NCBI GenBank assembly: GCA_021810805.1
Contig: JAJZHW010000004.1
Coordinates: 1-64,000, forward strand
DNA: 64,000 nucleotides
Direction of reading: 5' to 3'
Origin: Nitrospirota bacterium
Lineage (GTDB): Bacteria > Nitrospirota > Leptospirillia > Leptospirillales > Leptospirillaceae
A program made the translations under genes and the position numbers. How positions within the stretch are numbered: the first letter of the stretch is position 1; each line of letters starts with the position of its first letter. Below, one piece after another: positions 22,827 to 61,228 of the stretch. The notes beneath the pieces were generated by a model, which was not told the DNA's origin, searched no databases, and saw only the letters and a list, made by a program, of their open reading frames with translations.

Positions 22827-23426
22827 CTACTCCGCGTGTTCGTCGAGCCCCGCGGCCAGATCGTGACGAAATTCTTCCGGGATATGAAGGGCCTTTGTCT
22901 CATCCCATTTCCAGTCAGGGCGTTTTTCAGGATACTTCACAAGGTTTTGTGCATGGGCAATTCCATCGGGAGTTGCACCCCATGGTGTAAAGCCCGAAGT
23001 GGAGAGCAGGGAAGAGATCGCACGGGTCAGGCTGTGAAAGGGGGCATGATCTCTTACATCGATATGGATATGGCCGGTCGGAGGGAGGGCATGGTCATCA
23101 AAGAGGAGAACTCGACCGTAGGAGCCTTGAATGGTGTCGAGATGCTTCAGGATCAGCTCCAGCCGAGACTTTGGAATCCCGACAAGCAGGGTCACACCTG
23201 AAGAAAAGGTGAGAGTGTCTGCCGGCTTAAAGTCTGAAACATGTGCCGTGTCCAGAGAGGGAATCTTTTCTTCGAGGAATCGAAGGAGGTCTCGGCGTTC
23301 CTTATCAGTGTCATTCCATCCCCAGCGGGTTGATGACCCGATCATGAGAACCGGTCTTTCGGATGTCAGGATGAGATGGGCCAGGGAATGCACATCATGG
23401 GAGGTCTCGTTTTTAGGTGCCATCAT
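22827..23426 (-). CDS. Uncharacterised protein at the distal end of the hydrogenase-4-like operon
   Basis: 199-aa ORF co-directional with the complex; no family recognised by eye. Confidence 0.65.
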   Translation of the reverse strand: MMAPKNETSHDVHSLAHLILTSERPVLMIGSSTRWGWNDTDKERRDLLRFLEEKIPSLDTAHVSDFKPADTLTFSSGVTLLVGIPKSRLELILKHLDTIQGSYGRVLLFDDHALPPTGHIHIDVRDHAPFHSLTRAISSLLSTSGFTPWGATPDGIAHAQNLVKYPEKRPDWKWDETKALHIPEEFRHDLAAGLDEHAE

Positions 23427-23531: not shown

Positions 23532-24065
23532 CTATGGTAAGGGGCTCCGGATCTCCAAATCAAGGACAGGTGAATCGGAATGTGTCTTGGCAGGAGAAAA
23601 GCTCCGACGGATAGCGTCGGCAATCTCTTCCGGTCGGGGAGGGCAACCGGGAACGGTGAGGTTGGGAGACATATCCTCTGTCACTCCATTATGGATGGCA
23701 TAGCTTCCCCGAAAGACGCCCCCATTGATGGCGCAGTCACCCACTGCAAGGAGCCGCTTGGGAGAGGGCATGGCCTGGTATGTCTTTTCGAGGGCCTCTT
23801 TCATATGGCAAGAGAGGGGACCTGTAACCAGAAGAATATCCGCATGGCGGGGGGAGGCCACAAAGGAAAAGCCCTGACTCGACAGGGAGTGGACAGGGTT
23901 TTCCAAAGCCCAGAGTTCCAACTCGCACCCATTGCAGGAGCCGGAATCGAGATGACGGATGGAGGCGCTGCGGCTGTACTCACAGGGGGAGGTCCGCTCT
24001 GGTTTGTGCATGCGGGACTCTGTCAGATTTCCCGATTTCAAGATTTTCCAAAGTAGCTTCCACAT
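23532..24065 (-). CDS. NuoB/HyfI/HycG-like Fe-S subunit of hydrogenase-4-like complex
   Basis: SGSCNGCELELWALENP, AVGDCAINGG, VPGCPPRPEEI (four N2-cluster-type Cys retained). Confidence 0.87.
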   Translation of the reverse strand: MWKLLWKILKSGNLTESRMHKPERTSPCEYSRSASIRHLDSGSCNGCELELWALENPVHSLSSQGFSFVASPRHADILLVTGPLSCHMKEALEKTYQAMPSPKRLLAVGDCAINGGVFRGSYAIHNGVTEDMSPNLTVPGCPPRPEEIADAIRRSFSPAKTHSDSPVLDLEIRSPLP

Positions 24066-24073
24066 GGTGCCTC

Positions 24074-25603
24074 CTAGAGGTCGGAGCCGCTGTAGCTTGG
24101 ATTAAAGGATTTATTGATCAGCGGAAAATCAGCCACGAGGTTCCCGGGAACTGAGGCTTCAAGTGCATGCCAGAGGAGGGGAGAGCCTTCGGCGATATGA
24201 GCGCTCTCGATCGTCTTGCCCGGACGAATACGGACCCATCCGAGTACCTCTCCCCGGAACCCCTCCACAATTCCAAGGCCTTCACGGGAGAGCGGGATGT
24301 CAGGAAGTGTCGAGCATATGTCTGGTCCGGGGAAATTTGTCAAAAGGGCATGGACTAGGTGAAGAGACTCGAAGATCTCGAAAAAGCGGATCCGGACGCG
24401 TGCGGCGACATCGCCCACATGGTCCAGGGCCAGTGCTGGCGAAAACCGATGGACAGGATCCTCCCGGTGATCAATGCGAAGATCCCATCCCTGACCGCTG
24501 GCTCTCCCTGCCACCCCTCCAATCCCGAGGCGAATCGCAATCTCAGGGGAAAGGATCCCGGTATTTTGAAAGCGGTCCTGCAGCCCTCCATGATCACTGT
24601 AGATTCTTTCGAGGAGAGAAACCTCTGAGAGTAGGTCGTCGGTCTCTTGAAGAAGAGCGTCCACCATCTGGGGAGAGAGAAACGTGGAGACCCCCCCTGG
24701 AACGATCGTGTCAAAGAGGAGGCGATGGCCGAAGTGGGTCAGATTATGACGATGCATACGCTCCCTGAGAGGGCCGAAGAGAGAGAGTGCGACCCCTAAG
24801 CCGGCATCGTTTCCAAGGGCTCCCAGATCTCCAATGTGGTTGGCGATGCGTTCTCTTTCCAACAAGAGGGCCCGGACAAAGCGAATGCCTTCAGAGACCT
24901 CAATATTGAGAGCTTCTTCCACAGCCTTTGAAAAGGCGAGGCTGGTGGCGACCGCTGAGTCTCCCGAGATGCGTGACGCCAGGCGAGCCCCTTCAAAGAG
25001 GGTCCGACCCCGAAACAGAGAGTCGATCCCCTTGTGGACATAGCCCATTCGGGTCTCGAGTCTCAGAACTTTCTCCCCGACGACAGAAAAACGGAAATGG
25101 CCCGGTTCGATGATGCCGGCATGGACCGGGCCCACGGGAATCTCATGGACGCCCTCGCCGCGAACCCTGACGAAGGGGTAGTCCTCAGGCGCGAAGGGTT
25201 GATGGAGGGATGGTCGCCCCTCCGCGAGCGGGGGGACAAGCCAGAGGCCATGATCGGACCAGGGACGAAGATCGGTCAGTCCCTCGGGAAGAAGTCCAAA
25301 GAGATCGGCGATGGTTCGCTCAAAGCGGCCGGCGGTGGGAAAAATTGAGGAGAGTGAGGGGAAGCTTAAAGAATCTTTTGGAAGGGAGAGGGAAAGCAGG
25401 ACGACCCCTTCCCGAAGAATCAGGCTTGCCCGGATCGACGAGGGTGAGTCGGCCCAGAGAGCGAGAAGCCGGGCACCGGAATGAGCGAGAAAGTGGGCCT
25501 CCCCCCGGTATCTTTCTGGGGAATCAAAAGACAGAGTGGCGTGAGGGATCGCTCCGTGGAAGGAATCAAACCCGGTTTCCGGTGAGAAGTTGTTACCCTC
25601 CAA
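24074..25603 (-). CDS. NuoCD/HyfG/HycE-like large subunit lacking [NiFe]-binding cysteines
   Basis: MGYVHKGIDSLFRG...ASRISGDSAVATSLAFSKAVEEAL...C-terminal NKSFNPSYSGSDL. Confidence 0.87.
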   Translation of the reverse strand: MEGNNFSPETGFDSFHGAIPHATLSFDSPERYRGEAHFLAHSGARLLALWADSPSSIRASLILREGVVLLSLSLPKDSLSFPSLSSIFPTAGRFERTIADLFGLLPEGLTDLRPWSDHGLWLVPPLAEGRPSLHQPFAPEDYPFVRVRGEGVHEIPVGPVHAGIIEPGHFRFSVVGEKVLRLETRMGYVHKGIDSLFRGRTLFEGARLASRISGDSAVATSLAFSKAVEEALNIEVSEGIRFVRALLLERERIANHIGDLGALGNDAGLGVALSLFGPLRERMHRHNLTHFGHRLLFDTIVPGGVSTFLSPQMVDALLQETDDLLSEVSLLERIYSDHGGLQDRFQNTGILSPEIAIRLGIGGVAGRASGQGWDLRIDHREDPVHRFSPALALDHVGDVAARVRIRFFEIFESLHLVHALLTNFPGPDICSTLPDIPLSREGLGIVEGFRGEVLGWVRIRPGKTIESAHIAEGSPLLWHALEASVPGNLVADFPLINKSFNPSYSGSDL

Positions 25604-27077
25604 TGCTCACTCCCAACGACAGAATGGCCTTCTGATAAATCTCGTAAAGAGGAGCAGGAAAAAAGGTTCCAAGGAGCAGTGCCATTCCCAGATGGATCCA
25701 GATGGGGAAGAATGTCAGGCGCGAATGGGAGCGAGAAGGGGAGATTTCCGGCGTTGCCGTTTCACCCCCGCTCATCTCAAGGATGCGAAAAATCAGAACG
25801 CCAAAGGTGATAAACAGGGCAAGAAGGAGAAAGGGGACGGCGTAGGGGATCCTTTTGATGGCTTCGGCCATGATCAAAAGCTCGCTGGCAAACAGGGCAA
25901 ACGGAGGAAGGCCGGTAATGGCCAGTCCTCCGGTCAGGAGGGCCCGGGAAAGCCCTGGAGTTCGGGCGGCAATCTCTCGGATGGATGGGATCTTCTGGGA
26001 TCCCGAGGTTTGAACGATATGTCCCACGGCAAAAAAGATCGCCGATTTCACGAGGCTATGAGTGGTCATATGGAGAAGCCCCGCAAATGTGGCCAGCGGT
26101 CCACCGATGCCGAAGGCCAGGGTGGCGAGCCCCATGTGTTCGATGGAGGAATAGGCAAAGAGGCGCTTGATGTCCTGTCTCTTCCACATCGATATCGAGG
26201 CGAGAAGAACGGAGACAAAACCAAATCCCATAAGAAGATCCGAAGGCATTGGGCTATGGAGGGCCCCATCTGCCAGGATCTTTACCCTCAGAATGGCATA
26301 GAGGGCTACGTTAAGCAGGAGTCCGGAAAGGACGGCGGAGATGGGGGTGGGACCCTCGGCGTGGGCATCCGGAAGCCAGTTGTGAAGCGGGACCAGGCCA
26401 ACCTTTGTGCCATACCCCACGACAAAGAAGACGAAGGCCAGGGAGATGACCGTGGGTTCAAGCTGGGTTTTGACCGTCAGGAGGTGAGTGAGAAGAAGGG
26501 CTGTTCCTCCCGGCCCCAGGGTCTTTTCCGAGGCAAAGTAGAGAAGGATTGTGCCGAAGAGAGCCTGGGCAATGCCGACCCCGCAGAGAATGAAGTACTT
26601 CCAAGAGGCCTTGATGGCCGCGGGGGTCCGGGTCCACCCAACGAGAAGGACTGTCGCCAGGGTGGCCCCCTCGAGGGCCACCCAAAGAAGACCGAGATTG
26701 TTGCTGGCCAGAACGACGATCATTGTGAGGACGAAGAGCTGGTAAAGGGCGAGGTAGAGGCGCGTTCGCTCCGGGGTGAGGTGGCCATGCTCTCCTTCGA
26801 TCGTCATGTACCGAAGGGAGAAAAAGGAGGTGGTGGCGGCCACCCCCCCGGTAATGACGAGAAAAAGGGAGGAGAGGCTGTCGACAAAGAGATTTTCGTC
26901 GAGCGCGATCAGGGGGCCCTGCGTGTCGACCCTGATCGCCAAAAGGAGAGTCAGGGCAAAGGTGACGAGAGAAAACAAAATATTGACAGCAGAAGCAAAT
27001 CTTTTATGGCCCCAGAGGCCGAGAAAGAGTGCTCCGGACATGGGGACGACAAGAATCAGGACAAGAATCACGGTCAC
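25593..27077 (-). CDS. HyfF/NuoN-like antiporter-type membrane subunit
   Basis: WVALEGATLATVLLVG..., KVGLVPLHNWLPDAHAEGPTPISAVLSGLLLNVALYA. Confidence 0.88.
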   Translation of the reverse strand: MTVILVLILVVPMSGALFLGLWGHKRFASAVNILFSLVTFALTLLLAIRVDTQGPLIALDENLFVDSLSSLFLVITGGVAATTSFFSLRYMTIEGEHGHLTPERTRLYLALYQLFVLTMIVVLASNNLGLLWVALEGATLATVLLVGWTRTPAAIKASWKYFILCGVGIAQALFGTILLYFASEKTLGPGGTALLLTHLLTVKTQLEPTVISLAFVFFVVGYGTKVGLVPLHNWLPDAHAEGPTPISAVLSGLLLNVALYAILRVKILADGALHSPMPSDLLMGFGFVSVLLASISMWKRQDIKRLFAYSSIEHMGLATLAFGIGGPLATFAGLLHMTTHSLVKSAIFFAVGHIVQTSGSQKIPSIREIAARTPGLSRALLTGGLAITGLPPFALFASELLIMAEAIKRIPYAVPFLLLALFITFGVLIFRILEMSGGETATPEISPSRSHSRLTFFPIWIHLGMALLLGTFFPAPLYEIYQKAILSLGVSIGG

Positions 27078-27748
27078 TCCGTCGGGGTATTGTCCATATG
27101 CTTCAGATCGAAACTCTCAAAGGTTTCCCGTATTTGAAAAAAGAAAATACCAAAGACGAATGTTCCCACGAGGACATCGAAGGCCACCCCCAGCTCCACC
27201 ACCATGGGCATCCCATAGGTGGCATTGATGGCCGAGAAAAAAAGGGCGTTCTCCATTCCGAGAAAGCCCAAAACCTGGGTGACGGCCTTGCGTCGGGTGA
27301 TCATCATGAGAAAGGAGAGGAGGAGCGCGGCCAACCCCACCCCGATCAGGCCCCGGGAGACGGTATTGGCCATTTCGGAGATGGGGGCTGACAGGGCGAA
27401 GGAGAAGACGACGACGAAGAGCCCTGCCACCATGGTCGTGGGAACGTTGAGAAGCACCTCCACCTCTCCCCGGATATGGAGCCGCTCGAGAAGGCGGAAG
27501 AGAAGAAATGGCAGGAGCAGAACCTTGAAGGCCAGGGTGAAAAGGGCGGAGAAAAAGAGGTGAGGCTCTTTCGCGGCAAGAGCCACCGAAAGAGTGCTCA
27601 AGGTCAGCAGGATCCCTTGAAGGGCAAAAATCCGGACAAGCGATCCCATCCTTCTCATTGCCAGCATGGCGAAGGAGGAGAGGAGAAGGGCGCTTCCAAG
27701 AAAGCCGACGAGAGGGCTGGTGGGGGGATGAAGAAGAGAGGGTGTCAT
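27074..27748 (-). CDS. HyfE-like membrane subunit (NuoK-related)
   Basis: Polytopic ORF in HyfE position; start placed at MTPSLLHPPTSPLVGFLG, not the ORF-track start which overlaps the upstream gene. Confidence 0.72.
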   Translation of the reverse strand: MTPSLLHPPTSPLVGFLGSALLLSSFAMLAMRRMGSLVRIFALQGILLTLSTLSVALAAKEPHLFFSALFTLAFKVLLLPFLLFRLLERLHIRGEVEVLLNVPTTMVAGLFVVVFSFALSAPISEMANTVSRGLIGVGLAALLLSFLMMITRRKAVTQVLGFLGMENALFFSAINATYGMPMVVELGVAFDVLVGTFVFGIFFFQIRETFESFDLKHMDNTPTE

Positions 27749-27749
27749 C

Positions 27750-28715
27750 TCAGACCTCGAGGACAAAGTGGAGAAGGAATCCCAGTGTGGAGAGGAGATA
27801 GGCCAAAGCCGTGAATTCCGGGATCCGGAAGATGCGAAGCTTGGCAAAAATCGATTCGATCAGGGCGATCCCGGCTCCGAGAACAAAGAGCTTCCCCAGA
27901 AGCGCCACTAACCCGACAAGAAGCGAGAGGGGGGAAAGACCTCGGGAGATCCCCAGGGGGGCGAAAAAATCTATCCCCAGAAGGAGGTAGAGGAGGAGCT
28001 TTTGCATCGAGCCCCACTCCATCAACGCCAGGAGAGGGCCTGAATATTCGAGGAGCATGGCCTCATGAATCATTGTCAGTTCGAGGTGAGTCGAGGGGTT
28101 GTCGATGGGAAGACGGGCATTTTCGCCGAGAAAGACCAGGATGAAGGCCATGGCGGCGATCAGAAGACTGGGATGAAAGGGAGAATGCCCCAAGGAAAAG
28201 GAGTGGAGGATGGAGGGGATGGCGGTGGATCCCGACCAAAGGGAGACGGTGAAAAGAATCATGAGGGTGGCCGGTTCGGTCAGGAATGCCACCATCATCT
28301 CCCGCCGTCCCCCCATGTCTCCGAAGGGGGTTCCCAGATCCATGGCCGCAGCGGCCATGGCAAAACGCGCCAGGGAGAAAAGCCCCACAAGCGTCACCGC
28401 GTCGGCCACGGGGGCAAGGGGAGGGGATACCATCAGAAAGGGAATCAGCAGCGAGGCGCCGGCCATGATGAAAAAGAAAAGCGGGGGAACGAAAAGGAAG
28501 AGGTAGGAGTGTCCTTCGGGGAGGATCGTCTCCTTTCGAAGAAGTCGGAGAATGTTTCTCCAGGGCTGAAGAAGGCCGGCGGGCCGGCGGTTCTGGAGAA
28601 TCGCCCGGACAACCCCAATCCAGCCGTAGAGAAGAGGCGCAAGGAAAATGACAAAAAGCATTTGAAGAAGGGAGATGGTCCACCCAAAAGAGGGAAAAGT
28701 CGGGATTAATGCCAT
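27750..28715 (-). CDS. HyfC/HycD/NuoH-like membrane subunit
   Basis: FLAPLLYGWIGVVRAILQNRRPAGLLQPWRNILRLLRKE; MIHEAMLLEYSGPLLAL. Confidence 0.85.
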   Translation of the reverse strand: MALIPTFPSFGWTISLLQMLFVIFLAPLLYGWIGVVRAILQNRRPAGLLQPWRNILRLLRKETILPEGHSYLFLFVPPLFFFIMAGASLLIPFLMVSPPLAPVADAVTLVGLFSLARFAMAAAAMDLGTPFGDMGGRREMMVAFLTEPATLMILFTVSLWSGSTAIPSILHSFSLGHSPFHPSLLIAAMAFILVFLGENARLPIDNPSTHLELTMIHEAMLLEYSGPLLALMEWGSMQKLLLYLLLGIDFFAPLGISRGLSPLSLLVGLVALLGKLFVLGAGIALIESIFAKLRIFRIPEFTALAYLLSTLGFLLHFVLEV

Positions 28716-30829
28716 CTCAGCACCGAGAGAAGAATGATGAGGGTGGTAAAGCTATAGATCAGATAGACCGAGATGCGTCCGGAGCGAACCCGCTCCGCGG
28801 CTTCGGCCAGAGCGATGAAGAGTCGGAAAAGGGGGCGGTAAAGAAGGGGCCAGTGGGGATCTTCCACCGAAAGATCAAAGACGGGGTCAGGGTCCTCCGG
28901 AGTGGGAAGGTGCCGTTTCATGGAGAAAAAGACAGGAAAGAAATGGCGAATCGGCTGGGCGAAGGACTCGGCGGAGGCCTGGGAGCGTCCGGAGAGCTCC
29001 CTGTAGCCGCATCCCCATGGAGGTGCCGACCGCATTTTTCCCCGCCTGGTCCCCCAATAAAGCCAGAAGACCGGAAGAGTCAGGATCCCGACAAGTGCGA
29101 GCAGAAGGAGGGGGGATGAAGAGGGCCCCGCTGGGGGGAGGGGCAGAAGCCAGGCCCATCCATAAGCTTCAGGCGGTACGGTAAGGGAGGTCGCCGTCAG
29201 CGGTGACACGACCTTGACCACTTCCTTCAGGACAAGGCCAGGTAAGAGTCCGAGGAGGAGGGATCCCAAGGCCAGCCATCCCATGCCCAGCATCTCGAGG
29301 AGGGAGCACTCATGGGCTGCCTTGGCTCCTTCTGATCGGGGCAGGCCGAGATAGCCCACGCCGAAGAACTTGAGAAAGGCCATGGCAGCAAGGGCGGAGG
29401 CAAGAACAAGGATGGCTGCCCCAAAAAGAACGGAGCTCCGCTGGATAGTTCCAGAGAGATCACGAGCCTGCAATGTCGCCTGGAGAAGGAGCCATTCCGA
29501 GGCGAAGCCGTTGGTCGGGGGGATTCCGGAGATGGAGAGGACACCAAGGAGAACCAAGGTCCCGGAGCGGGGCATATGGCGGAGAAGTCCCCCCATCCGG
29601 TTGAGATTTGTCTCTCCGGTTGCATGGATCATGGTGCCGGCTCCGAGAAAGAGAAGACTTTTGAAAAATGCATGGTTGAGAGCATGGAAAAGTGCGGCAG
29701 AAAGAGCCAAGGTTCCTGGAAGGGGGTGGCCTGTTTTGAGATAGAGAATCCCGAGGCCTGTTCCCAAAAGGATGATGCCGATATTTTCAAGGGAGGAGTA
29801 AGCCAGAAGGGCCTTGGGTGCCGATTGGAGAATGGCGTGAAGAATTCCGAATAGGGCCATAAAAGCCCCTGTGACCATAAGAAGGATTCCGAAGGAGGAG
29901 GCAAGCTGATGGAGCCCCACCAGCTCGAAGAGGGCCCGGATAAGGCCGTAAATGGCGGCCTTGAGCATGACGCCGCTTAGCAGGGCAGAGGCCGGAGTCG
30001 GTGCCGCCGGATGTGCCAGAGGAAGCCAGACATGGAGAGGGAGAAGTCCTGCCTTGGCCCCGAAGCCCAGAAGAAAGAGAAGGGAGGCGAGGAGGGCGCC
30101 CTTGGGGGAGAGGTGGCTCTGGCTCAGCGCCTCAAAGGAAAATGAGCTCAGGGAGACGATGGAAGAAGGGGTTTCCCGGATGGACAGCAGGGCAAAGGAA
30201 GCCAAAATCAGGAGGCTTCCTCCATGGGCCAGCAGAAGGGTGAGGTATCCGGCTCGCCGGACCTCGGGGGTCTTGTCCCCGGACAGGATCAAAAAGAAGG
30301 AGGCGACAGCCATCACCTCCCAGAAAACCATGAAGGAATAGGCATCGTCGGCGAGGAAGACCCCGCCTGTAAAAAAGAGAAAAAGGGTCGTGCGCGAGAG
30401 AAGCTCGGCGACCCTCTTCGTGGCCATATCCTTGGTATAACCGGCGGAAAAAAGGAGAACTCCCGTCGAGGCCCCTCCTAAAAGAAGAAGAAAAAAACTC
30501 GCGAGGGGATCCTGGCGCAGATGAATGAAGAGGTCGGGAATGCCGCCAGGAAGGACGAGACGGATGTCAGATCCTGCCAGAAGTCCCCGAAGTCCGGAGA
30601 ACGTCAGTGCCAGGGTTTCCAGGGAGAGCAGGAGAAAGATTGGCGTGGCAAAGGTTGGACGTCTTGTCAGAAGCCAGGCGCCGGCAAGCCCTGTCACCAG
30701 AAGAGCAAGGAGGGTCGAAAGGCTGAAGAAAAGAGGCGTTGCCGAAAGAGAGGTCACGGATGTGTCATCTTTCCCTGAGGCCGGGATGTTCCTGTGGAAC
30801 TCTAAGGGGCAGGGTGAGAAGGTGTTCAA
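28706..30829 (-). CDS. HyfB/HycC/NuoL-like antiporter-type membrane subunit
   Basis: SFMVFWEVMAVASFFLIL, GFGAKAGLLPLHVWLPLAHPAAPTPASALLSGVMLKAAIYGLIRALFE. Confidence 0.87.
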   Translation of the reverse strand: MNTFSPCPLEFHRNIPASGKDDTSVTSLSATPLFFSLSTLLALLVTGLAGAWLLTRRPTFATPIFLLLSLETLALTFSGLRGLLAGSDIRLVLPGGIPDLFIHLRQDPLASFFLLLLGGASTGVLLFSAGYTKDMATKRVAELLSRTTLFLFFTGGVFLADDAYSFMVFWEVMAVASFFLILSGDKTPEVRRAGYLTLLLAHGGSLLILASFALLSIRETPSSIVSLSSFSFEALSQSHLSPKGALLASLLFLLGFGAKAGLLPLHVWLPLAHPAAPTPASALLSGVMLKAAIYGLIRALFELVGLHQLASSFGILLMVTGAFMALFGILHAILQSAPKALLAYSSLENIGIILLGTGLGILYLKTGHPLPGTLALSAALFHALNHAFFKSLLFLGAGTMIHATGETNLNRMGGLLRHMPRSGTLVLLGVLSISGIPPTNGFASEWLLLQATLQARDLSGTIQRSSVLFGAAILVLASALAAMAFLKFFGVGYLGLPRSEGAKAAHECSLLEMLGMGWLALGSLLLGLLPGLVLKEVVKVVSPLTATSLTVPPEAYGWAWLLPLPPAGPSSSPLLLLALVGILTLPVFWLYWGTRRGKMRSAPPWGCGYRELSGRSQASAESFAQPIRHFFPVFFSMKRHLPTPEDPDPVFDLSVEDPHWPLLYRPLFRLFIALAEAAERVRSGRISVYLIYSFTTLIILLSVLRWH

Positions 30830-58425: not shown

Positions 58426-59646
58426 ATGGCGACGCAGACAGATTCCCGGGTTCCCCAGATTGGTCAGCGCAACAAAAAAAACCAGCTGATCACGGATCCC
58501 AATGAACTTTTTTTCCTCTCCCCCCGTACCCCAAACTTTCTGACCGGATCCGAAGTCATTCGGGAGGCTGTCAGACGCTCCAGTGTGGACTTTTCCGTGG
58601 CCTATCCCATCACGCCCCAGTCGGAGGCCTCGTCCCTCGTCGGTGAACTCTATGCCGAGGGTTATGTGGGCGACTACATGCGCGGTGAATCTGAGTTTGC
58701 AGTGATGGGAGAGTGTGCGGGAGCCGCCTTTGCGGGAGCCCGTGTCTTCACCACAACGGCGGGACCCGGAACGTTGCGTGCCTTTGAAAACTTCCCCATG
58801 TGGGCCGGAAGCCGCCTTCCCATCCAGGTCGTCTTCACGGTGCGAGGAATCAACTCCCCCCTGACCATTCAGCCGGATACCCTGGAAATCGCCTTCATGC
58901 TGGAGACGGGAATGCTCCTGTGGCATGCGGAATCGGCCCAGGATCTCTTTGACTTCATGCTCAAAGGCTACTACGTCGCCGAACAGCCGGAAGTCCACCT
59001 TCCCATCGGGGTGATCTGTGACGGCTTCTTTGTGACCCATACGAAAGATATGGTCATGATGACTCCCGAGGACAGAACCCTTCCCCATTACGATCCCTAT
59101 CGCAGTCCGGTCGTCTGCATGGACATGGAAGTTCCCCCTGTCCGGATGATGCGGGATCCCTTCGTGATGAAGTCAAATTACATCAGCTACATGACCCATG
59201 CCAGCTGGCAGCTTGAAATTCGGGCGGCCATTGAGCGCTCTCGGAAACACACCATTCCGCTTCTCGATGGTCTGATCGAGGTGGAAAACTCCGATGCGGA
59301 AATCATGCTGATTGCTTCGGGGACGGCAGTCTCCCAGGCCCGCGAGGCCATTCGCCTCTTCCGGGATAAAGGTGTCCGGGTGGGATTGGTCAAGATCAAA
59401 ACCCTTCGCCCCTTCCCCACGGAAGAGATCCGCAAGGCGACAGAGCATGCGAAGCATATCTTTGTTCCCGAATTCAACGTGGCGGGATGGCTCGCCCGGG
59501 AAATCAAGTCCACGATCGACCGCAACCACCGTGTGGTGGCAGGTCCCCACGTGGCCGGGGGGATGACCATGCCTCCGGAAATTATCGTCGAGGAAATCGA
59601 AAAACATATGGCTCATCGCCGGAATAAGGAGCTCGTCCATGGCTAA
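58426..59646 (+). CDS. 2-oxoacid:ferredoxin oxidoreductase, alpha subunit, copy 2
   Basis: FLTGSEVIREAVRRSSVDFSVAYPITPQSEASSLVGELYAEGYVGDYMRGESEFAVMGECAGAAFAGARVFTTTAGPG. Confidence 0.93.
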   Translation: MATQTDSRVPQIGQRNKKNQLITDPNELFFLSPRTPNFLTGSEVIREAVRRSSVDFSVAYPITPQSEASSLVGELYAEGYVGDYMRGESEFAVMGECAGAAFAGARVFTTTAGPGTLRAFENFPMWAGSRLPIQVVFTVRGINSPLTIQPDTLEIAFMLETGMLLWHAESAQDLFDFMLKGYYVAEQPEVHLPIGVICDGFFVTHTKDMVMMTPEDRTLPHYDPYRSPVVCMDMEVPPVRMMRDPFVMKSNYISYMTHASWQLEIRAAIERSRKHTIPLLDGLIEVENSDAEIMLIASGTAVSQAREAIRLFRDKGVRVGLVKIKTLRPFPTEEIRKATEHAKHIFVPEFNVAGWLAREIKSTIDRNHRVVAGPHVAGGMTMPPEIIVEEIEKHMAHRRNKELVHG

Positions 59647-60523
59647 CCGCATTCAGATCAACAAAGAATTTGTCGACATCATGCCGCAAGACTATCTTGA
59701 TCTTGTGGAGAGTGGAACCTTTGAAAGCCCCAATAGAGGCTGGAAGGACTTTGGAACGGCGACCGAACTGATTGCCGAGCATTCGCTTTGTGCCGGATGT
59801 CCCGAGTCGATTGCTTTCCGCCACATCATGGCCTCCATCCCGAACCCTGAAGATACGGTCATGGTAGGGTCGACGGGCTGTACAAGCTTGGTCTTTCCGA
59901 TGATTGCCGTGCACAATATTCACTCCCTCTTCGGAAATCAGAATGCGATTGCCACCGGACTCAAGCGGGCCCTCGCCGTTCGTTTTCCTGACAGGATCAA
60001 GGATGTCATTGTCCTGGCCGGTGACGGAGCGACCGTCGATATCGGTCTCGATATGACCCTCCAGTCCTGGTTCCGGAAGGAACGCTTCACCACCATCTGT
60101 TTCGACAATGAACTCTATGCCAACACGGGGGGACAGGAATCCGGTCTGATGCAGAAGGGATTCCTTGCAAAGATGGCTCCCGTCGGAAAGCGCTTCGACA
60201 AGGTCCGTCTCCCGGAAATTGCTCGGGAGTCCGGGTGCGACTATGTGGCCATTATGACCGCCAGCAAGCCGAGCCTCGTGGAGAAGGTCATCAAGCAGGC
60301 CGTTCTCATTGCCCGGGAGGTCGGACCGACCTACATTCAGATCTATACCCCCTGCATCCTTGAAATCGGAAAGCAGAGCATGGAAGGTCTCCAGGAAATG
60401 AGAACCTCAGAGGCTCCGGGTGAACGGTTCAAGTTCCGGGAGTTCATTTCTCCGGAGGCCCAGTCCTTCCTCGATGGCCTGGCCGAGAAAAAGAAGGCCG
60501 AAAAGATCGCTGCCACAACCTAA
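59639..60523 (+). CDS. 2-oxoacid:ferredoxin oxidoreductase, beta (TPP) subunit, copy 2
   Basis: HSLCAGCPESIAFR, AGDGATVDIGLDMTLQSWFRKERFTTICFDNELYANTGGQESG. Confidence 0.93.
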   Translation: MANRIQINKEFVDIMPQDYLDLVESGTFESPNRGWKDFGTATELIAEHSLCAGCPESIAFRHIMASIPNPEDTVMVGSTGCTSLVFPMIAVHNIHSLFGNQNAIATGLKRALAVRFPDRIKDVIVLAGDGATVDIGLDMTLQSWFRKERFTTICFDNELYANTGGQESGLMQKGFLAKMAPVGKRFDKVRLPEIARESGCDYVAIMTASKPSLVEKVIKQAVLIAREVGPTYIQIYTPCILEIGKQSMEGLQEMRTSEAPGERFKFREFISPEAQSFLDGLAEKKKAEKIAATT

Positions 60524-60538
60524 CCCCCGGGAGATCCA

Positions 60539-61228
60539 ATGAAAAAGCGCATCAATATCCGCATGTCGGGCTTGGGTGGACAAGGGGTCGTGACCTCTGC
60601 CCATCTGATGGCGATGGCCGCGGCTCACGAAGGAAAGTTTGCCATTTCGAACCCCTTTTTCGGGGCAGAAAAGCGCATGGCTCCGGCCGAGTCCTATGTT
60701 CGAATCGGCGAGGAGAAAATTTTCGACCGTGGCGAGCTGGTCTTTCCCCATGTGGTGATGGTCTATCACCCACAGGTCATTACCATGGGTAAGAGCTACA
60801 CGATGCCTTTCTATTCGGGAATCAAGGACGGTGGACTCATTATCATCAATGATGACATCGAGCTCCTCACCGATGAAGAGAAAAGTGACCTCGCCAAGAA
60901 AAAGATCACCGTCTATTACGTCCCGGCGACAAAGATTGCCTTGGAACTCGCTGGCACCGAGCTGGCCACCAATATGGGAATGTTGGGGGCTCTGGCTGGC
61001 CTCACCCATGCGGTGACAATGGATGGGCTTGATAAGGCGCTTCAGGATCGTTTTGGAAAGAAATACGTCGCATCGGGAGGAACGGCCACCCTCGACGAGG
61101 CGATCAAGAAGAAGTTTGCCAAAAAAGAAATGCTTCTCCAAAAGAACCTTGAGACCATCCGCAGGACGTTCGATGAGGCAGAAGCCTTTGCCAAAAAGAA
61201 CCCCGCCTTTGCGGTCAACGTCAGCTAA
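60539..61228 (+). CDS. 2-oxoacid:ferredoxin oxidoreductase, gamma subunit, copy 2
   Basis: IRMSGLGGQGVVTSAHLMAMAAAHEGKFAISNPFFGAEKRMAPAESYVRIG. Confidence 0.92.
   Translation: MKKRINIRMSGLGGQGVVTSAHLMAMAAAHEGKFAISNPFFGAEKRMAPAESYVRIGEEKIFDRGELVFPHVVMVYHPQVITMGKSYTMPFYSGIKDGGLIIINDDIELLTDEEKSDLAKKKITVYYVPATKIALELAGTELATNMGMLGALAGLTHAVTMDGLDKALQDRFGKKYVASGGTATLDEAIKKKFAKKEMLLQKNLETIRRTFDEAEAFAKKNPAFAVNVS

Follow-up and report, generated by a model that had tools for sequence, protein, structure and literature searches.

The gene at the center of this study, ehrL, encodes a HycE/HyfG-like large subunit of 509 aa that is read from a TTG start. It lies in a 64-kb window (the whole stretch of DNA that was analyzed, 64,000 nucleotides) from a member of the Nitrospirota. 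As shown in Table 1, ehrL is the fifth of six genes in a hyfB-C-E-F-G-I-like operon that runs from position 30829 to position 23532, with successive genes either overlapping or separated by a gap of 8 bases. Pfam matches in EhrL comprised the 30-kDa (NuoC) and 49-kDa (NuoD) domains of complex I, and the NiFe-hydrogenase match was sub-threshold. The operon contained no HycF/HyfH (HycF/NuoI-type), HycB, HycH, HycI or maturation genes, and no HycB, HycF or FdhF-like gene was found adjoining it in the window. True plasmid-borne hydrogenase operons, which were fetched for comparison, carried HycF/HyfH, HycB, HycH and HycI, with hyp genes beside them.

Table 1. Features of the ehr operon (positions in the window).
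Feature	Coordinates	Strand	Remarks
HyfB-like antiporter-type membrane subunit	28706..30829	-	pump residues kept
HyfC/NuoH-like membrane anchor	27750..28715	-	
HyfE-like membrane subunit	27074..27847	-	true start probably downstream of ORF start
HyfF-like antiporter-type membrane subunit	25593..27077	-	pump residues kept
EhrL, HycE/HyfG-like large subunit	24074..25603	-	NuoC-like N-terminal and NuoD/hydrogenase-large-subunit-like domains, without Ni ligands
E166 codon	25106..25108	-	equivalent of proton-donating HycE E193 / MbhL E21
R211-I-S213-G-D215-S216 codons	24956..24973	-	replace HycE RVCGIC
N501-P-S503-Y-S-G506-S-D508 codons	24080..24103	-	replace HycE DPCYSCTD
EhrS, HyfI/NuoB-like small subunit	23532..24065	-	four proximal-cluster cysteines C44, C47, C111, C141 kept
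EhrS C44-N-G-C47 codons	23925..23936	-	[NiFe] hydrogenase CxxC spacing, unlike the adjacent cysteines of complex I (PMC7684303)

A first-pass annotation had proposed that RISGDS and NPSYSG stand, within homologous flanks, where HycE carries its two CxxC pairs, and that all four Ni ligands are lost. Among solved structures, the best match to EhrL was E. coli HycE (7z0s_E, E 4.8e-44; HMMER), followed by P. furiosus MbhL. In the HMMER alignment to HycE, RVCGIC and RISGDS were in register, as were DPCYSC and NPSYSG, and in the MbhL alignment RISGDS likewise fell on the first CxxC pair. When EhrL was aligned with HycE, HyfG, NuoCD and about 60 homologs by using MAFFT, HycE C241, C244, C531 and C534 corresponded to EhrL S213, S216, S503 and G506, and no set of four Ni-ligating cysteines was recovered at other positions; indeed, none could lie elsewhere, because C430 is the only cysteine in EhrL. 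As a positive control, the HycE-type proteins of two genomes of the same phylum (G062 and G087), aligned together with EhrL, showed the complete CCCC set; the method is therefore capable of detecting them when they are present. The proposed loss of the Ni ligands was thus confirmed. The annotation had also held that the protein cannot be a conventional [NiFe] hydrogenase and had pointed to hyp maturation genes as a check. Consistent with this, neither HypD nor HycI was found in the host genome (1.87 Mb, 88.7% complete), in which NuoD of an ordinary complex I was the only PF00374 protein found. Among the related Nitrospirota genomes in which HypD was looked for, 24 were at least 90% complete and had an Ehr-type hit; 10 of these 24 lacked HypD. 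Judged from the sequence, EhrL cannot bind [NiFe] in the usual manner and has almost certainly no part in H2 turnover; the loss of H2 chemistry in Ehr is close to certain.

The AlphaFold model of EhrL (pLDDT 85.9, pTM 0.89) gave HycE as its best structural match (Z 43.6, 495 residues, 2.5 Å), with complex I 49-kDa subunits next (Z about 40). In this match the last residue of EhrL, L509, was aligned to HycE R537, the mature C-terminus left after HycI cleavage. The ehrL stop codon thus lies one residue past D508, at the mature HycE terminus; EhrL has no cleavable C-terminal extension, and the gene therefore encodes an already processed form. The hydrogenase domain of HycE is given as residues 182-537 (PMC9474812). 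In a 73-row IQ-TREE tree, which is unrooted, contains several long-branched rows and was built without the published Ehr reference sequences from Geobacter or Sulfobacillus, a branch with 100/100 support parted all cysteine-less, non-NuoD sequences from every [NiFe] and NuoD sequence, placing EhrL outside the bona fide [NiFe] hydrogenases. The protein had been assigned beforehand to the energy-converting-hydrogenase-related (Ehr) complexes, a class said to bridge group 4 hydrogenases and complex I. The class assignment stood, inasmuch as both the absence of CxxC Ni motifs and the operon make-up fit the complexes described in Geobacter (GSU0739-0745), Sulfobacillus, Margulisbacteria and comammox Nitrospira (PMC7894505, PMC4378227, PMC6349859, PMC10284858). 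For the bridging the analysis gave no support, given that the tree is unrooted and that the pocket resembles that of a hydrogenase without its metal rather than a stage intermediate to complex I.

To characterize this pocket, residues singled out in the structural study of FHL (PMC9474812) were located in EhrL. The proton relay of the hydrogenase was retained, with HycE E193, R478, H284, E437 and R395 corresponding to EhrL E166, R450, H256, E409 and R367, respectively, and all five were invariant across the 51 main-group sequences examined. Three pocket positions were changed: HycE D192 to I165, S283 to N255 and the canopy D529 to N501, the last being Asn where hydrogenases and complex I carry a strictly conserved Asp. 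The His that binds the quinone headgroup in complex I (Nqo4 H38) was absent, the beta1-beta2 loop of EhrL reading I165-E166 versus His-Gly in NuoD, and the quinone Tyr (Nqo4 Y87) was likewise absent, with Gly in its place in the aligned DR motif. NuoD also carries Lys where HycE has R478. A complex-I-like quinone mechanism is therefore unsupported, because the quinone His is missing, Gly occupies the Tyr position and the canopy Asp is replaced by Asn (PMC9474812, PMC7684303). In EhrS, the cluster cysteines C44, C47, C111 and C141 were invariant. The HyfB-like and HyfF-like subunits both keep equivalents of the TM5 Glu, TM7 Lys and TM12 Glu; the NuoK glutamates were not found at the aligned positions of the HyfE-like subunit, nor are they in E. 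coli HyfE. We found no mention of the proton relay, the CxxC proximal-cluster motif, the missing quinone His or N501 in the Ehr literature searched. Two variant arrangements were also observed. Four genomes (G040, G074, G090 and G101; loci L139, L142, L146 and L147) form a minor Ehr group with a HycF-like ferredoxin gene, in which the pocket reads A/T-T-S-G/A and the canopy Asp is kept in three of four. Two others (G025 and G071; loci L144 and L148) carry two different tandem Ehr operons, of which one has an RxSGT and the other an RxSGD pocket motif.

The residues that replace the Ni ligands are themselves conserved. With few exceptions, R-x-S-G-D-[ST] and N-K-S-F-N-x-S-Y were common to 15 Nitrospirota and 39 mostly proteobacterial sequences, the full motifs RxSGD[ST] and NKSFNxSY[SA]G being near-invariant. 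In the 51 main-group sequences, the four Ni-ligand positions were occupied by S/A (one C), S/T (one A), S/N and G/A. Against its two nearest relatives, ehrL had a dN/dS of 0.07 to 0.08, with dS near saturation. Near-invariant motifs together with this low ratio exclude decay of EhrL, and the conservation of the replacement residues across the class likewise excludes chance or sequencing error. By the evidence of these sequences, the Ehr complex is maintained by selection.

A pattern scan of GTDB genomes yielded at least 583 confirmed Ehr relatives, and many of the 80 that were listed belong to Burkholderiales, Rhizobiales and Gallionellales. The six-gene operon is conserved across the phylum Nitrospirota, where its occurrence is patchy (4 of the 13 genomes of genus g14), and the same six-gene set was found in Rhizobium plasmid pRL11 and in Variovorax; the Rhodococcus set is reordered. 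That actinobacterial operon, on plasmid pRZP3 (L156), has the small-subunit gene first and transposase and integrase genes close by. A Burkholderia cenocepacia conjugative plasmid (L158) carries a very divergent relative in which the genes are rearranged and the NKSFN motif is missing. On a Rhizobium plasmid (CP050084.1, 72558-73814), an Ehr large subunit is annotated, misleadingly, as hydrogenase expression protein HypE. In the neighborhoods examined, no neighboring gene family spanned the Ehr class and no conserved donor or acceptor gene adjoined the operon; neighborhood clustering, which was hampered by shadow ORFs in GC-rich genomes, was used solely for the statement on shared families.

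In the host genus, the ehr operon is followed by a gene for a 199-aa PF02552-like protein and then by porABCD, so that in every stretch read through to its end ehr lies directly upstream of por and in the same orientation; other genera of the family, as far as they were read, did not show this linkage. In the sister genome G011, all six ehr genes are missing between the upstream neighbors and the 199-aa gene, and por is kept. At the junction (L154, 9480-9960), about 105 upstream-side bases remain together with roughly the final 40 of ehrS, and no second ehr copy was found in this 78% complete assembly. G011 has thus undergone a clean loss of the ehr operon with retention of por, and ehr is therefore dispensable, at least in the G011 lineage. 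The 199-aa protein (22827-23426, minus strand) contains no Cys, has a weak match to CODH/ACS epsilon (PF02552) and adjoins porA where read. It was considered as an electron-input subunit of Ehr and rejected, since it was found only in the host genus and stays by porA in the ehr-less G011; it goes with por. Its AlphaFold model was poor (pLDDT 56) and a PDB profile search returned chance hits only; it may be a fifth, cofactor-free subunit as in Hydrogenobacter-type 2-oxoacid oxidoreductases. A second 2-oxoacid:ferredoxin oxidoreductase-like set lies at 58426-61228 (plus strand), and its alpha subunit, the only one compared, is 51% identical to that beside the ehr operon.

Taken together, ehrL is the large-subunit gene of an Ehr complex of six subunits, and we think it reasonably probable that this complex couples H2-independent redox chemistry in what was the [NiFe] pocket to ion pumping. 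Pumping as such is likely. A mobile low-potential carrier would deliver electrons to the proximal cluster; ferredoxin is the likeliest candidate, at modest odds, and a mobile donor is suggested because no NuoI/HycF-type subunit is encoded. The emptied pocket would then be the site where a proton-consuming organic substrate is reduced, E166 being the putative proton donor. This substrate would most simply be a quinone, an identification for which we put the chances at a little under even. More tentatively, and with doubt prevailing, Ehr might add a third type of catalyst to the complex I superfamily: its metal-free pocket would keep the hydrogenase proton relay, be lined by Asn/Ser where the canopy Asp and Ni ligands would otherwise stand, and couple substrate reduction to ion pumping by a mechanism that differs from that of complex I.

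The redox reaction proposed for Ehr should be reversible, and the host has 2-oxoacid:ferredoxin oxidoreductases and probably fixes carbon through the reductive TCA cycle. Ehr could then run backwards in this organism, the proton gradient driving a quinol:ferredoxin reductase that feeds reduced ferredoxin to the neighboring 2-oxoacid:ferredoxin oxidoreductase for CO2 fixation. The consistent position of ehr upstream of por in the host genus speaks for this, and how Nitrospirota/Nitrospinota autotrophs obtain low-potential ferredoxin is an unsolved question (PMC9040806, PMC3578206). Nevertheless, we regard it as rather unlikely: the linkage is absent from the other genera of the family covered, many of the listed Ehr carriers are Rhizobiales and Burkholderiales, and within one genus (probably Nitrospira) only some genomes carry Ehr. 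This patchiness within genera, together with the G011 deletion that spared the oxidoreductase genes, indicates that Ehr is not an obligate ferredoxin supplier. Electrons might instead come from a separate formate dehydrogenase, as in formate hydrogenlyase, and pass to an acceptor other than protons. The fold and operon are nearest to FHL/hydrogenase-4, Geobacter Ehr subunits rise on formate (PMC7894505) and an FDH-Ehr has been proposed in Margulisbacteria (PMC6349859), but the lack of HycB, HycF and FdhF-like genes in and around the operon in the window makes a formate-linked complex improbable here.

Two further accounts were weighed. Archaeal MBS is another complex I relative without Ni ligands (PMC7684303), and an Ehr that reduced sulfur (polysulfide) in the same way would use the proximal cluster as catalyst. 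This is quite improbable, since MBS catalysis needs a shortened loop with three Cys, whereas EhrS keeps its CxxC and four Cys; moreover, MBS retains two large-subunit cysteines, neither of which is found in Ehr, and lacks the MbhL E21 equivalent (PMC7684303) that Ehr keeps. That the locus is merely a degenerate, non-functional hydrogenase remnant accords with the lost active site and with the description of Geobacter Ehr as non-functional (PMC13194489), but open frames, six-gene synteny, the low dN/dS, a near-invariant pocket across phyla and intact pump residues leave it scarcely any probability. Because of this conservation it is refuted as a general account, and purifying selection on EhrL sits badly with the Geobacter description. 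Ehr complexes are common in soil and rhizosphere Proteobacteria and in Nitrospirota. Their mechanism is narrowed by the residue inventory to a proton-dependent reaction with no metal and no complex-I-type quinone His; the inventory also points to residues for point mutants, and the host genus, with por beside ehr and one natural deletion, offers a comparative test.

Compared with known systems, EhrL shares with NuoCD/NuoD of complex I the fold, the fused C/D domains (as in E. coli) and the proton-path residues His, Glu and Arg. It differs in having no quinone His, Gly at the Tyr, Arg for the canopy Lys and Asn for the canopy Asp; the proximal cluster is bound by CNGC rather than by the adjacent CC of N2, and there is no NADH module. 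P. furiosus MBS belongs to the same superfamily and has also lost its Ni ligands (PMC7684303), with the difference in the cluster loop noted above, whereas P. furiosus MBH, a further member, keeps them all. E. coli FHL/hydrogenase-4 (HycE, HyfG) is closest in fold, in its fused 30-kDa domain and in its proton relay; our complex lacks the Ni ligands, HycF/HyfH, HycB, HycH, HycI and the C-terminal extension and has Asn at D529 and S283. Of the group 4 [NiFe] hydrogenase features, the four Ni cysteines, HypD, HycI and the cleavable extension are thus absent. Published Ehr complexes, noted to lack the CxxC motifs, to be of unknown function and to occur also in Nitrospira (PMC10284858), agree in their Hyf/Nuo-like membrane subunits, retained small subunit and large subunit without CxxC Ni motifs. 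The host lineage is another one, and no difference in kind was found in this comparison, which was made from published descriptions. With a large subunit homologous to group 4 hydrogenases and NuoD but without Ni CxxC motifs, two antiporter-like subunits and NuoH-, HyfE- and NuoB-like subunits, the complex fits this already described class, to which the present analysis adds a residue inventory, the C-terminus match, evidence of purifying selection and a natural deletion.
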